A stretch of DNA of 55,507 bases, from positions 1 through 55,507 of the forward strand of contig JAISUO010000114.1 in assembly GCA_031272035.1 (NCBI GenBank), read 5' to 3'. The stretch is from Synergistaceae bacterium (GTDB taxonomy: Bacteria; Synergistota; Synergistia; Synergistales; Aminobacteriaceae). Positions within the stretch are counted from its first letter, which is position 1; each line of letters begins with the position of its first letter. This document shows positions 22,631 to 35,825 of the stretch, one piece after another. A program made the position numbers and the translations under genes. The notes beneath the pieces were generated by a model. It was given only the letters and a program-made list of their open reading frames with translations. It did not search any database and had not been told where the DNA came from.

Positions 22631-22999
22631 TCAGGCTTTCAGATCCATGCGGTCTTTCATGTGTGCGATCAGGTACGCCACCATGCCGAGGGTTTCTTCC
22701 GTGGGAATGTTGCGCAGGACTCTCCCGTCGGAGCGATCGATAACCTGAACCTGGACCATGTTCACGCCTTCGCGGACGTGATATTTCAGGTCCGTCTGGG
22801 TCAGCTCCATGAGTTCGCAGACCTTTTCCAGGATTGCACGTTTTTTTTCATGGCTCTGGCTCGAAAAGATCCCCGCGACGTCCTCGCCGGCTCCAGGCGC
22901 GGGAGTCTTTTGAGGGCTCGTCCTCCGGGGATGCAAAACCTCAGGGACAAAAGGCGGGTTCTCCTGTCGCAGATTGCGTTCGAACTTGTCGATCTTCAC
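22631..22999 (-). CDS. flaG: FlaG-family flagellar protein
   Basis: A 122-residue protein. The C-terminal half (about 65-120) has the FlaG domain pattern: a helical VCELMELTQTDLKYHVREGVNMVQVQVIDRSDGRVLRNIPTEE, the last part being the family hallmark of a turn followed by R-x-I-P-x-E. FlaG proteins are small cytoplasmic factors linked to flagellar filament length. I set the start at GTG 22999 because AGAGGTGA lies 7 bases upstream; reading upstream in frame would add 20 residues without a ribosome binding site. It sits 165 bases downstream of the flagellin gene on the same strand. Confidence 0.85.
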   Translation of the reverse strand: MKIDKFERNLRQENPPFVPEVLHPRRTSPQKTPAPGAGEDVAGIFSSQSHEKKRAILEKVCELMELTQTDLKYHVREGVNMVQVQVIDRSDGRVLRNIPTEETLGMVAYLIAHMKDRMDLKA

Positions 23000-23164
23000 G
23001 GTTGTCACCTCTCGAATGAAATTTACACTTTGCCTCCAGGTCGGGACACGATTCTGCAATCCGCCATAAGGATCATGAAGGAAGGGAAAGGACCCCGAAT
23101 GGTGACGAGGTCCCTCCTGATTGAGAACCCTTCTTTATTTTGGAAGAAGGATGGATGTTAACTT

Positions 23165-25507
23165 TTATCTCAGCAGGCTCAGAATGTTCTGAGGAAGCTG
23201 GTTCGCCTGGCTCAACATGCTGTTTCCCGCCTGGAGCATGATCTGCAGTTTGGTGAAGTTCACCATTTCCTTTGCCATGTCCGTGTCACGGATGCGGCTC
23301 TCAGCGGCGGTCAGATTCTCGCTGGCGGTGGTCAGGTTGTTGATGGTGTGCTCAAGGCGGTTCTGGTAAGCGCCCAGCTTCGCTCTCTGAGTGGAAACCT
23401 TGTCCAGCGCGTTGTCGATGACGGTGATGGAGCGGGCCGCCGAGGTCCGGTTGGTGACCAGAACCTTGTTCAGGCCCAGAGCGTCGGAGCGCATGTCGCC
23501 CACGTCGATACCCATGTCTTCACCTTCGTTGGCGCCTATCTGGAACACCGTGGTGTTGTCCGCAAGGTGCAGGAACGTGGTGTAGGGATCCGCACCGGAA
23601 GCAGCGGAGGCGGAAGTGAAGTCGAATTTTTTCGTACTGTTGTTCCAGGTGGCCACGACGTCGGCGGTGGCGTCAAACTCCACGTCCACGTTGGGGTGCA
23701 GTTGACCGATGAGGCGATTGCCGGTGACCTTCGCCTTGTCCACGACGATTTTCCCGGAGTGAGCATCGGTGGCGGTAACGGTGAAGTCCGTTTCCTTTGC
23801 TTCCTGCACCACGCTGAGAGAAAGGGCGTTGAGCAGGTCCTCATCTCCGGCGAAGGAGAGCTTTCCGGCATCGCCGGTCAGGGCCGTACGGATCAGAATG
23901 GTACCCTGCACGGCCTCGGAGGTATTGGCCGTGGGTGTCTCCACGAAGGAGGCAAAGGTGTTCGCGCCGGCGCCGGTGACGTATTTGCCCTGCCCAAGAC
24001 CGCCGTTCAGCTCGGAACGGCTGATGGCGTCGTTGAGCTTCTGGGCCACGCTGCCCATGGTGTCGTTCTTGTAGAGGGTGATGCTGGTGGTTTTCCCGTC
24101 GCCCTGGGTGATGGTGATCTTCTGAGGGTCGTTGACCAGGAAGCGACCCTGGGCGTCCCAGAATTTTTCGATGTCCCAGAGGCGGGTGCTCGAATCAGAC
24201 AGGTCTCCGACGCCCTTTACCTTGAGGGTGGCTGTCGTTCCATTCAGCAGAGGGGCGGATCCGAGGTTGAGAGTTATGGTGCCTCGGGTGACCTTGCCGG
24301 TTGCGTCCATGGAAATTTGCTCAAAGGGTATAGATTTCTCAGTGGGATTCGCGCCAAGGACGAACGTGCCTCCAATCGAGATCGGGGCACCGCCCGGGTT
24401 TGCCATGGTGGCCGTTACCTCGAAGTCGGCCGCCGTGGATGTGGCGGTCGTGTTGACGACAGCTTTTTCCCCGGCCGTGAAAGCGGCGAGATTGGCGGTG
24501 GTTAACAAAGTCCTGTCAAAAGAGAGCCCCAAACCTGCGATGTTCGTCGGGACATCGGCGGCGGGAGTTGGCGTGAGAGTGACGGTATCGGTGACGTCCG
24601 TGACGACTCCGTCTTTGTCCATCATGGTTCCGGAGATTTTGATGGTGACGCTGGAACTGGAAGCGGACTCCACTTCGAACAGCAGACTGGAGTTGTTCGT
24701 GGTCAGCGCCGCATCTGTCTTTATGAGGTTTGCAAGGTTAAGTCCCGCGCCGGCTGTACCTCCAAACGACGAAGCTATGGTCGTCTTCGCGTTACCCGGG
24801 GTTGCGGGTGTCGCGACTGCGACGGTGTACTCTCCCGATGCCAGTCCGGCCGTCTTTCCGGAGGTGAAAATGCTGGCGTTGTTGGTGGAAAAAGTGACGA
24901 CATCGGGATGCTTGATTCGGAAGATGTCCGTTTTCTGGATCTCGGCGTCGCCGGGGTCGGCGGTGATTTGAATCTTGTAGTTGCCCTCGGCGGCCCGTTT
25001 CTGTCCGAACTGGTCGATGACCCGAAGACCGCCGTTGACTATGGCTTTCGTGGTCAGCTTGTCAGAGGACCACAGAGTGGCGGCGGACCCGTCCAGCAGT
25101 TTCTTTTTGTTGAACTGGGTGGTATTGCCGATGCGAGTGACTTCCTGACGAAGCTGGTCGATTTCCTCCTGGATGTAAGAGCGGTCCTGCTGAGTCAGAG
25201 TGTCGTTGGCGGCCTGAACGGCCAGCTCGCGCATACGCTGAAGAATGCTGTGGGTCTCGTTGAGAGCGCCCTCAGCGGTCTGAATCATGGAAATGCCGTC
25301 CTGCGCGTTGGCGGTGGCGCGATCCAGCCCCCGGGTCTGAGCCCGCATTTTTTCGGAAATGGCCAGTCCTGCGGCGTCGTCGGCGGCGGAGTTGATGCGC
25401 AGTCCCGTGGACAGCTTCTGAATGGACTTCTGGAGCATGCTGTTGGTGGACGTGATGGCGTTGAGAGACTGCATAGCCGGAATATTGTGATTGATAACCA
25501 TACCCAT
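23165..25507 (-). CDS. fliC: flagellin with very large variable domain
   Basis: A 780-residue flagellin, about 1.5-2.5 times the usual length. The N-terminal D0/D1 region is intact ([70 protein letters not shown]). The C-terminal D1/D0 is intact as well ([32 protein letters not shown], ending [14 protein letters not shown]). Between them lie about 500 residues of Thr/Ala-rich beta-type sequence, including an IN-like unit ([20 protein letters not shown]). The start at ATG 25507 has AAGGAGGTT upstream. The promoter at 25717-25745 is sigma70-like. It is the major filament candidate, with a degenerate paralogue upstream. Confidence 0.95.
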
Positions 25508-25810
25508 GATAAAAGAACCTCCTTGTTTTTTGTCCTGGCGGGCATCCCTGCCTGTCAAGAGGTATGCACATATGTAATTGAATAAACCTTTTTCGAATGC
25601 TTAACGTATGGAACAAGATATGTTAAGAGTCACCAGTGTCATAAAATGCTTTTTTAACCACCTCCGATAGTTTCATATAACCTGAGTTCTTTTGTAAGAC
25701 CGTCGCTTACGACATATTTATAAAATACGCAGTGACGAAAATCAATAAGAAGAATTGACGATAATAATTTTACAAAATACAAATAATTATGTTGAATTTT
25801 AGTCAAAATA
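25508..25810. other. intergenic region between the two flagellin genes
   Basis: A 303-base AT-rich gap. It holds the promoter for the downstream flagellin (25717-25745), leaving an untranslated leader of about 200 bases, and a ribosome binding site next to 25507. I see no sigma28-type GCCGATAA element in the minus orientation and no strong terminator for the upstream flagellin. Confidence 0.6.
25717..25745 (-). promoter_or_regulatory. sigma70-type promoter of the main flagellin gene
   Basis: On the minus strand TTGATT (25740-25745), exactly 17 bases, then TATAAA (25717-25722). A long 5' leader separates it from the start at 25507. A 15-base stretch overlapping the -10 (25719-25733) recurs exactly at 50929-50943. 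Confidence 0.6.
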
Positions 25811-28159
25811 TCATGTAAAACTGTGCATTATGTTCCCGAACTGAAGCATGATCCGGAACTTTGTGACGTCCATCATTTTTTTCGCCATGTCCGTATCCCG
25901 TATGCGGCTGCTGACGGCAAAGAGGTTCTCACTGGTTGCGCTGAGACTGTTGATGGTGTGCTCCAGACGGTTCTGACAGGCCCTCAGCTTCGCGCGCTGT
26001 GTGGAAACTTTGTCCAGCGCCTGGTCGATGATGGTGACGGATCGGCCCGCTGATTCCCGATCGGTGATCAGAACCCGATTCAGTCCCAGTGCGTTGGATC
26101 GCATGTCTCCAATGCCGATGCTCATGTCTTCGCCGCCGTTTGCGCCGGTCTGAATTACCGTTGAGTTGTCCGTAAGCTGCAGGAACGTGGTATAGGCTTT
26201 TTCGCCGGGGGCAAAGTCGAACTTCTTTGTGAGGCCGTTCCAGACGGCCGAGACGTTGGCGGCGGCGTCGAACTCCAGATCCACATTGGAGTGAATCTGA
26301 CCGATAAGGCGATTGCCACTGACGCGCACGCCATCCACAAGGATTTCTCCGGTGAGGGCGTCAGCGGCGGTGACGGTGAAATTCGTTTCCTTCGCATCCT
26401 GCAGGACGCTGAGCCCCAGCGCGTTGAGAACGTCTTCGTCTCCGGCGAAAAAGAGCCTTCCCGCGTCTCCGGTGAGGGCGGAACGGATCAGAAGGGCGCC
26501 CGTCGCGGATTCTGAGCTGTCGTCCGTGTTTTTTTCCTCCTCCACGAAGGAAGCGAAGGAATCCTGCATCGCGTTGACGGCGTACAGCTCCTGCCCAAGT
26601 CCCCCTTCCAGTTCGGAGAGGCGGATGGCGTCGCTGATCTTTTTCGCCACGTCCTCCATACTGTCGTTTTTATAGAGGGTAAAACCGGCGACTTTTCCGT
26701 TTCCCTGGGTAATGGAGATATACTGAGGATCCTCAACAAGAAAACGGCCCTGGGTGTTCCAGAATTTGTCGATGTTCCGGAGGCGGCTGTCCTTCCGGGC
26801 GAGGGGCCTGACGTCAGGGGCGACGATCAGAGTCGCCCTGTCGCCGTCTTTGACGGCTGCGGAGCCGAAGTCCAGCGTGACGGTTCCCACTGTGGCTTTG
26901 CCCTGTCTGTCCAGTGTGACATATCCGAAGTCTATCGTCCTGCCCCTGATGACGTCCGCGTCGATGGCGACGGGCGAGGCGAAGAATACAAAGGGAGATG
27001 ACGGCCCCGTGATATTGAGCTTCACCTGGTTTGGCGCGGCGGTCGGGGAGATTGTATCGATAACGGCTTTTTGTCCAACGGTGAACTCGGAGACATCGGA
27101 GCCCGCTGTCGCGTTTTCCTGGAGAGTCATGTCGAGTCCTGACGGTCCCGAAAGAAACACGCTTTTGCTGCCGCCTGCCGTGAAGGTCGCGGACTGCGGG
27201 CCGATGACGGTGCGATTTCCGCTCCTGTCCATGACGAACCCCTGATACTGAACCGTCACCTTTCCCGTGCCGGCATCGACGTCCGTCACCTCAAACAATA
27301 TACTGGAGTTATCCGTGTTTCCTGCGGCGGCGAGAGCGTATAACTGCAAATTATGCAGACCCGTCTGCAAAGGTCCGCCGCCGGAGCCGGGGAGCGTTCT
27401 TCCGCCGGGGATCGTCGAGGCGGTCACCTCTCTGTATGTCGCTCCCTGTTGTACGGACTGCACGGTCACATCGTATCGTCCCGGGGGCAGGTTGGAGCCT
27501 CTTCCGGATTTGAAGGCGTCGGGGGCGCTGGTGCTGAAGGTGAACGGGCTGCCGATGCTCTGCCCTCCGGAATTTCGGAGCCTGAAGATGTTGGATTTTT
27601 TAACCTCGGCCTGACCGGGGTCGGCGGTGATGTGGATTTTGTAGCTGCCCCCGGCGGGCCGCTTTCGAACGGGCTGATCCATGATTCGAAGTCCGCCGCC
27701 GATGATGGCCTTCGTGGTCATTTTGTCCGTCGACCAGAGGACCCCCGCGGAGCCGTTCAACAGCTTCTTTTTGTTGAACTGGGTGCTGTTCCCGATGCGG
27801 GTGATCTCGTCCCGGAGCCGGTCGATTTCCGCCTGAATGCAGCTTCGGTCCCGTCGGGTCAGGGTGTCGCCGGCGGCCTGCAGAGACAGCTCCCGCATAC
27901 GCTGGAGAATGCCGCTCGTGTCGCTGAGTGCCCTTTCGGCGACCTGAATCATGGAAATACCATTCTGTGCGCCGGCGACAGCCCGGTTCAGCCCACGGGC
28001 CCGGGCGAGCATTCTCTCGGAAATGGCGGGGTCGGCGGCGGAGTTGATGCGCAGCCCCGCGGAGAGGCTCCGAATGGCTCTCTGAAGTGCGGGGCCGCTG
28101 GCGGCGGGGGAGTCGAAAAACTGAAACGCGGGGATGTTGCTGTTGATAATCAAAGCCAA
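25811..28159 (-). CDS. divergent flagellin paralogue lacking the conserved C-terminal end
   Basis: A 782-residue protein, alignable with the neighbouring flagellin along its whole length. Both ends are eroded. The invariant N-terminal motif [12 protein letters not shown] is reduced to SAADPAIS, the first helix is altered (AFQFFDSPAASGPALQRA), and the C-terminus stops at QFGNIMHSFT, about 15 residues before the usual [14 protein letters not shown]. Central domains, the IN-like unit (FTLYKNDSMEDVAKKI) and [12 protein letters not shown] remain. The reading frame is uninterrupted. The start is TTG 28159 with GAGAGG 8 bases upstream. D0 of flagellin is needed for export and polymerisation, so this is either a specialised minor subunit, a non-polymerising protein or an early pseudogene. 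A structured leader lies upstream (28240-28369). Confidence 0.85.
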   Translation of the reverse strand: MALIINSNIPAFQFFDSPAASGPALQRAIRSLSAGLRINSAADPAISERMLARARGLNRAVAGAQNGISMIQVAERALSDTSGILQRMRELSLQAAGDTLTRRDRSCIQAEIDRLRDEITRIGNSTQFNKKKLLNGSAGVLWSTDKMTTKAIIGGGLRIMDQPVRKRPAGGSYKIHITADPGQAEVKKSNIFRLRNSGGQSIGSPFTFSTSAPDAFKSGRGSNLPPGRYDVTVQSVQQGATYREVTASTIPGGRTLPGSGGGPLQTGLHNLQLYALAAAGNTDNSSILFEVTDVDAGTGKVTVQYQGFVMDRSGNRTVIGPQSATFTAGGSKSVFLSGPSGLDMTLQENATAGSDVSEFTVGQKAVIDTISPTAAPNQVKLNITGPSSPFVFFASPVAIDADVIRGRTIDFGYVTLDRQGKATVGTVTLDFGSAAVKDGDRATLIVAPDVRPLARKDSRLRNIDKFWNTQGRFLVEDPQYISITQGNGKVAGFTLYKNDSMEDVAKKISDAIRLSELEGGLGQELYAVNAMQDSFASFVEEEKNTDDSSESATGALLIRSALTGDAGRLFFAGDEDVLNALGLSVLQDAKETNFTVTAADALTGEILVDGVRVSGNRLIGQIHSNVDLEFDAAANVSAVWNGLTKKFDFAPGEKAYTTFLQLTDNSTVIQTGANGGEDMSIGIGDMRSNALGLNRVLITDRESAGRSVTIIDQALDKVSTQRAKLRACQNRLEHTINSLSATSENLFAVSSRIRDTDMAKKMMDVTKFRIMLQFGNIMHSFT

Positions 28160-28235
28160 GTCAGAAACCTCTCAGTATCGTTTGTCAAGTTTATTATTTA
28201 CTCAAAAACACGGCGTAAATAAGTTTGCGTAATTT

Positions 28236-28268
28236 ATATAAAAACCCCTCTTCGTTGCGGAAGAGGGG
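28236..28268 (-). terminator. terminator inside the flagellin-paralogue leader
   Basis: A perfect 9-bp stem (28245-28253 with 28260-28268) and 6-base loop, followed on the minus strand by five T residues (plus-strand A 28240-28244). It lies 80 bases before the TTG start of the flagellin paralogue, so it would attenuate that gene. Confidence 0.85.
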
Positions 28269-28369
28269 CTGAGGTAACCGCGGCAGGGAATGGCTCAGGT
28301 ATTCCTTGCCCCAGATGGGGTGATGTAATCGACTGCATCATAAACACCTTATACCAATCGATTTACTGC
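28240..28369 (-). ncRNA. candidate structured leader RNA or small RNA upstream of the flagellin paralogue
   Basis: A strong promoter and an intrinsic terminator enclose about 130 bases. The RNA (minus strand) can form a TGATG/CATCA hairpin, a CCCC-AUCU-GGGG hairpin, a GGAAU/AUUCC hairpin and a CTGAG/CTCAG pairing (28294-28298 with 28269-28273). GGGGC (28308-28312) could also pair with GCCCC (28265-28269), which includes the 5' arm of the terminator. That gives a plausible on/off switch. I compared it by eye with the c-di-GMP-I, TPP, T-box, ZTP, fluoride and THF classes and found no match. Role unknown: attenuating leader or independent sRNA. Confidence 0.5.
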
Positions 28370-28375
28370 ACATTA

Positions 28376-28404
28376 TTTATAAAGTAAGCGTTATTCAAAG
28401 TCAA
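28376..28404 (-). promoter_or_regulatory. strong sigma70-type promoter of the leader RNA
   Basis: On the minus strand TTGACT (28399-28404), 17 bases, then TATAAA (28376-28381). The predicted start of transcription is near 28369. Confidence 0.7.
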
Positions 28405-28573
28405 TAGGGGAAAATAATAACAATATCTTAGGAATAGTGAGTTTTCAATCTGATAATTTGTCATAAATTAACGTCAGCAGGCTCTTATTACAATATTGTT
28501 ATTTAGGGTTCGGGGGAGTCAGGGCTGTCGTCCCGCGCCGGAAATTTTCGGTCCCTTTCGAAGCGGGGCGGGA

Positions 28574-35085: not shown

Positions 35086-35327
35086 TGTCCTCACGTCATC
35101 ACGGTCGTATGGGATAAAAAAGAGCTGCGGATACGCCAAACACAAAAGGGCAATATACAAAACCCTTTTGATTTGAATGGAATGTTACCACAAAGCTCCA
35201 TCGGAGTACAACCCCCGCCCTCTTGGGCCGGATCGGAAAGGATTGATCGGCCTCACCTCTTTCAGGGCAACAAAAAAGGGGTTGTCAATAGTTTTTCGGA
35301 CCAAAAGTTAAGCAGCTTCGACTGAGT

Positions 35328-35825
35328 GATTGCCGAGCCATTTTTCAAGCCACTGCGTCGGACTGAGATAACCCGGTCTTTTCTGTACGCGTTTGGTGTT
35401 ATAAAAACCTTCAATATATGCAAACATTGTTTGTCGTGCTTCTTCTTTCGTCTTGAATTGCGTCCAATGAACCGCCTCCTTCTTCAAATTTGCGAAAAAA
35501 CTTTCACTCCATTGGAACGGCCTTTCAATCACTCTCCCTCGAACCAGATTGACATACCCTTCTCCACGGGCCTTCTTGCTGTCCGTCAATGAACGCTGCC
35601 TGCGCCTTAGATGAACACTCTTCAAACCCCTGTCTTCCATAACCTTTTTGACGCGCCTGAACGACGCCTCTTTCCCTGGGTTAGAAGTATCCCGCAGATA
35701 CGTTCTATTCTATATACACCGCGATCGTTATTGAAAATGTCCTGAACAGTCTGAGCAAAATCCTGGGATCGCCGTTCTTGTTTCTCATGAGTCTTTTTCC
35801 ATTCGTAATAACCGCTGCGCGACAC
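35328..35825 (-). pseudogene. IS3-family transposase OrfB, frameshifted and internally deleted
   Basis: The N-terminal piece (35640-35825) carries MSRSGYYEWKK and NNDRGVYRIERICGIL, the HTH_21 part of IS3 OrfB. The reading frame then shifts near 35640 and continues as RGLKSVHLRRRQRSLTDSKKARG. It jumps straight to the integrase C-terminus (SESFFANLKKEAVHWTQFKTKEEA, FYNTKRVQKRPGYLSPTQW). The catalytic DDE core, normally about 100 residues with two Asp, is missing. It is a dead transposase. Confidence 0.8.

Follow-up and report, generated by a model that had tools for sequence, protein, structure and literature searches.

Why would a flagellin gene be preceded by both a promoter and a terminator, placed one after the other upstream of its start codon? 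The question arises in the window, the whole stretch of 55,507 nucleotides of a Synergistaceae bacterium that we analyzed. There, a block at positions 28236-28404 lies between tex (28701 onward) and a flagellin gene on the minus strand (25811-28159), which are divergently transcribed. This gene, here called paralogue 1, is degenerate. An intact flagellin, paralogue 2 (23165-25507, minus strand), is 55% identical to it and lies immediately downstream. An earlier note on this DNA described the block as a leader RNA running from promoter to terminator, and suggested a new switch or a stand-alone small RNA. The leader itself is supported, as the promoter and the terminator are both real. In the explanation that we consider best, the leader is specific to the lineage, and an intrinsic terminator that acts constitutively cuts off most transcripts of a flagellin paralogue in decay. 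We give this reading a probability of roughly 0.6.

The promoter of paralogue 1 is of the sigma-70 type (28376-28404, minus strand). It consists of the hexamers TTGACT (28404-28399) and TATAAA (28381-28376), with a spacer of 17 nucleotides. A consensus promoter scanner missed it, solely because that program accepts no base but T at the end of the -10 hexamer. With up to two mismatches, the expectation for such a promoter in the window is 0.1. By pattern match, a duplicate, TTGATT-17-TATAAATA, is found at 25715-25745 on the same strand and belongs to paralogue 2. We searched the 3.18-Mb genome for the pattern TTGAYT-N17-TATAAATA, allowing one mismatch. It gave two matches, both exact, and both precede the two adjacent flagellins of the window (28404 and 25745). 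The near-consensus promoter described before is thus confirmed as above chance. The pattern was composed after the second copy had already been seen; despite this, chance does not account for the position of the copy at the neighbouring paralogue. The two promoter 31-mers are identical at 22 of 31 positions, with an alignment score that no shuffle reached. The distance from promoter to start codon is 245 nt in paralogue 1 and 238 nt in paralogue 2. Since this promoter shape occurs only at two adjacent flagellins, with similar distances to the start, the simplest view of the block is that it forms the 5' leader of the flagellin itself, and not an unrelated small-RNA gene. Its sequence shows that the paralogue 1 promoter arose by duplication and belongs to this flagellin: it copies the one at the neighbouring flagellin.

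Two other elements were noticed around this promoter. The AT-rich region between it and tex contains an imperfect inverted repeat of 22 nt (77%) at 28416-28437 and 28482-28503, a possible operator or divergent promoter region. A sigma-28-like promoter just 5' of the TTG start, seen by eye, was not retained, as hardly any leader would remain with it.

The promoter also bears on the proposal of a stand-alone small RNA. Such an RNA would end at the terminator and act in trans, for example by pairing with other flagellin messages. The block is a compact unit from promoter to terminator, and this part of the proposal stands. What weakens it is that its promoter copies that of the neighbouring flagellin. 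In addition, the duplexes predicted with four leaders or starts of flagellin genes in the same genome were no stronger than those of shuffled controls, and the block shows no conservation in 188 genomes of the phylum. A trans-acting RNA is quite improbable here.

The second element of the block is the intrinsic terminator, which lies on the flagellin strand as claimed before. It has an 11-bp stem (28243-28270, minus strand) followed by TTTTTATAT, with the U-tract extending to 28236. The 40 nt around it fold with a z-score of -5.2 against dinucleotide shuffles. Terminator scores of the d'Aubenton-Carafa type are 20-36, varying with the position at which the stem is cut. The block ends 76 bases 5' of the TTG start at 28159. 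In the 260 nt 5' of the start codon, a terminator-like hairpin is present in only two of the other 21 flagellin leaders (L045 and L054), so flagellin leaders of the family do not generally carry a terminator. The hairpin of L045 comes directly after the stop codon of the preceding flagellin.

A terminator in this place could have another origin. It might be what remains of the 3' end of a third flagellin copy, since deleted, with the promoter also belonging to that copy. Paralogue 1 would then have lost its own promoter and would sit behind an old terminator. Several results are consistent with this history. Within the window, the terminator 25-mer is matched best by the 3' terminator of paralogue 2 (23126-23150, minus strand; 19/25). 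When the whole block is aligned to the 3' end of paralogue 2, only 0.1-0.3% of full shuffles do better. The GC content of the block (0.49) is also above that of its flanks (0.27 and 0.33). However, with the terminator fixed, the similarity of the pre-terminator part becomes marginal (3-5% in one test). A second test of this part gave 4-18% when anchored and 30-80% when free. A profile of the flagellin C-terminus found nothing meaningful in the six frames, and the similar distances from promoter to start speak for an original leader. We therefore regard a deleted third copy as unlikely. The related idea, that the block is what a flagellin tail has decayed into, came from a by-eye likeness to FMMQSITSPHLGQ. 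It was rejected after the negative profile search and the marginal shuffle tests.

We return to the reading of an original leader with a constitutive terminator. From the positions of promoter and terminator, the predicted transcript has about 134 nt (28236-28369, minus strand). Its sequence is only marginally similar to the leader of paralogue 2. If the terminator were regulated, a ligand, a protein or the translation of a short open reading frame would choose between termination and read-through, and expression of the flagellin variant would be conditional. The parts of the block are in the right order for this, namely promoter, leader and terminator. However, the RNA ahead of the terminator does not look like a sensor. 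The 99 nt 5' of the terminator fold with a z-score of -0.59, and 75 of 300 shuffles fold equally well; no structured sensor region was found in them. A weak 5' hairpin, GTAAATCGATTG...CAGTCGATTAC (28325-28366, minus strand), has a z-score of -2.1 when taken alone. The second predicted hairpin (28278-28314, minus strand) lies in a segment at chance level (z -0.9). The several short hairpins previously described before the terminator were not confirmed to exceed chance.

The second hairpin includes GGGGC (28312-28308), on which the earlier note had based a possible switch. The motif is present, and it can pair either with CCCC or with GCCCC of the terminator 5' arm, as stated there. Nevertheless, a complement to the terminator arm of the same length (5 nt) occurs in 64% of shuffled leaders, and forcing the GGGGC:GCCCC pairing costs about 6 kcal/mol. 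The alternative pairing is possible, at chance level and with this cost.

We also searched for relatives of the leader. No Rfam family reached its gathering threshold in the window. The best match below threshold was the PyrR binding site RF00515, with 24 bits (gathering score 54) and an E value of 0.27, in agreement with the previous impression that the leader matches no riboswitch class. DNA searches of 100 relatives, and then of 188 phylum genomes, returned nothing but the window and, in one genome (G074), a 21-base match to the terminator. A covariance model built from the single sequence and run on the 100 relatives gave weak matches. On inspection, they were hairpins resembling terminators, a stretch resembling a tRNA and one chance hairpin. 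The earlier proposal was to look for the same block, with compensatory changes, in relatives; no homologue appeared in the 188 phylum genomes by DNA search or in the 100 relatives by covariance model. Phage and plasmid collections gave nothing better than E 0.6. In two genus relatives (G001 and G002), tex is kept and is preceded by a different sequence; the stretches examined show no flagellin next to it, and so gave no orthologous leader for comparison. Within these collections, the leader is known from one genome. A loop, CTGAGCCATTCC, with a downstream CTCAG as pseudoknot partner, was noted by eye and discarded. It had no genome match, and its two viral-contig matches lie in surroundings unlike the leader.

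One further feature could serve regulation. An open reading frame of 37 codons, or 35 if counted from the ATG at 28341, crosses the terminator and ends just past the U-tract (28234-28347, minus strand). A weak AAGGTG lies upstream, and a leader peptide is possible. About 3% of shuffled leaders have a frame of such length, which is mildly unusual. Because the frame crosses the terminator, its translation could be coupled to read-through: a closely trailing ribosome could block the hairpin. Against a regulated attenuator we set the pre-terminator folding, the chance-level competing pairing, the Rfam result and the lack of a homologue among the 188 phylum genomes. Regulation of this terminator is rather unlikely. 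In a narrower form, the attenuator would be specific to the lineage, and translation of the leader frame (35-37 codons) or a ligand-dependent fold would let transcription into the variant flagellin gene; this is very improbable. A new switch, a new attenuator or a response to c-di-GMP, as first proposed, is not supported beyond the arrangement of the parts: the RNA ahead of the terminator folds in no unusual way, the competing pairing is as frequent by chance, and the 188 phylum genomes gave no homologue.

The state of the gene behind the terminator agrees with a leader that mostly terminates. Paralogue 1 starts with TTG where its relatives have ATG. It has a deletion from DDAAGL to DP within the conserved N-terminal domain, and the C-terminal tail ending in LSLLR is absent. 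Its N-terminal domain scores 97 bits, compared with 163 bits in paralogue 2. With four outgroup flagellins, we estimated the rate of change at second codon positions as 0.18-0.20 on the paralogue 1 branch versus 0.07-0.08 on that of paralogue 2. So, paralogue 1 is a decaying, tandemly duplicated flagellin with relaxed codon constraint. The decay is recent or partial, since the frame is still open across 782 codons. Likewise, third positions of paralogue 1 changed faster (0.31-0.35) than second positions. It means that some constraint outlasted the duplication and that the gene is perhaps still in use.

In the surroundings of the pair, no 3' terminator is apparent between paralogue 1 and the promoter of paralogue 2. 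A FlaG protein gene (22631-23059, minus strand) lies just downstream of the two flagellins. Farther away, an integrase-core (rve_2) fragment (35308-35640, minus strand) is probably the remnant of an insertion sequence.

The leaders of other flagellins show what paralogue 1 may have lost. Of 21 flagellin leaders of the family, 20 have between one and three hairpins whose loop contains GGA, within 100 nt 5' of the start codon; these 20 include the leaders of paralogue 2 and of two more flagellins from the same genome. The stem sequences differ among them. In 200 shuffles, the corresponding count had a mean of 3.8 and a maximum of 12. In paralogue 2, the hairpin is GGCAGGGATGCC (25541-25552, minus strand), of the CsrA-site type. 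No GGA-loop hairpin precedes paralogue 1, and the stretch from its terminator to the TTG lacks any GGA. Besides that of paralogue 2, the leaders noted for such hairpins are those of L033, L034, L036, L040, L044, L046, L065, L066 and L068, in which they lie up to about 100 nt 5' of the ATG. In L033 and L068, the Shine-Dalgarno sequence lies inside one GGA loop. In Bacillus subtilis, CsrA binds the 5' leader of hag and occludes the Shine-Dalgarno sequence, and FliW relieves this effect (PMC6529632). In the family leaders, the hairpins look like CsrA-type control of translation, and their sites outnumber those of the textbook leader of hag. On another contig of the same genome (G000:C119, 8848-12429), csrA and fliW are close to a flagellin gene, the arrangement expected for control of flagellin by CsrA and FliW.

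Taking these results together, we propose the following course for the truncated leader. RNA polymerase would start at the promoter of paralogue 1, near 28369. It would transcribe about 134 nt and then mostly terminate at the strong terminator (28270-28236). Only read-through transcripts would reach the TTG start, resulting in little or no expression of the gene. The short RNA would be a by-product, and the terminator would act constitutively, with no ligand switch. If this plain reading is true, the locus illustrates, on a small scale, the silencing of a duplicated flagellin gene: its coding region decays, it loses CsrA-type control and its transcripts end early, within the leader. If the terminator were regulated instead, flagellin would be attenuated at the level of transcription, whereas the known control of hag by CsrA and FliW is translational.

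Compared with known systems, the block resembles transcription attenuators in having a promoter, a short leader and an intrinsic terminator 5' of the start codon, all on the strand of the gene. It differs from them in that its leader gave no sign of a sensor or of alternative structures above chance, and showed no conservation in the 188 phylum genomes. With the PyrR binding site it shares the generic order of hairpin and then terminator, at the 24 bits given above. However, many pairs are mismatched, and the gene here is a flagellin and not a pyr operon. The CsrA/FliW-controlled hag leader of Bacillus subtilis (PMC6529632) is also a flagellin 5' leader. Likewise, the genome studied here has csrA and fliW, and its neighbouring flagellin leaders bear GGA-loop hairpins. 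In contrast to hag, which is controlled at translation, the leader of paralogue 1 has no GGA-loop hairpin and carries a terminator instead.
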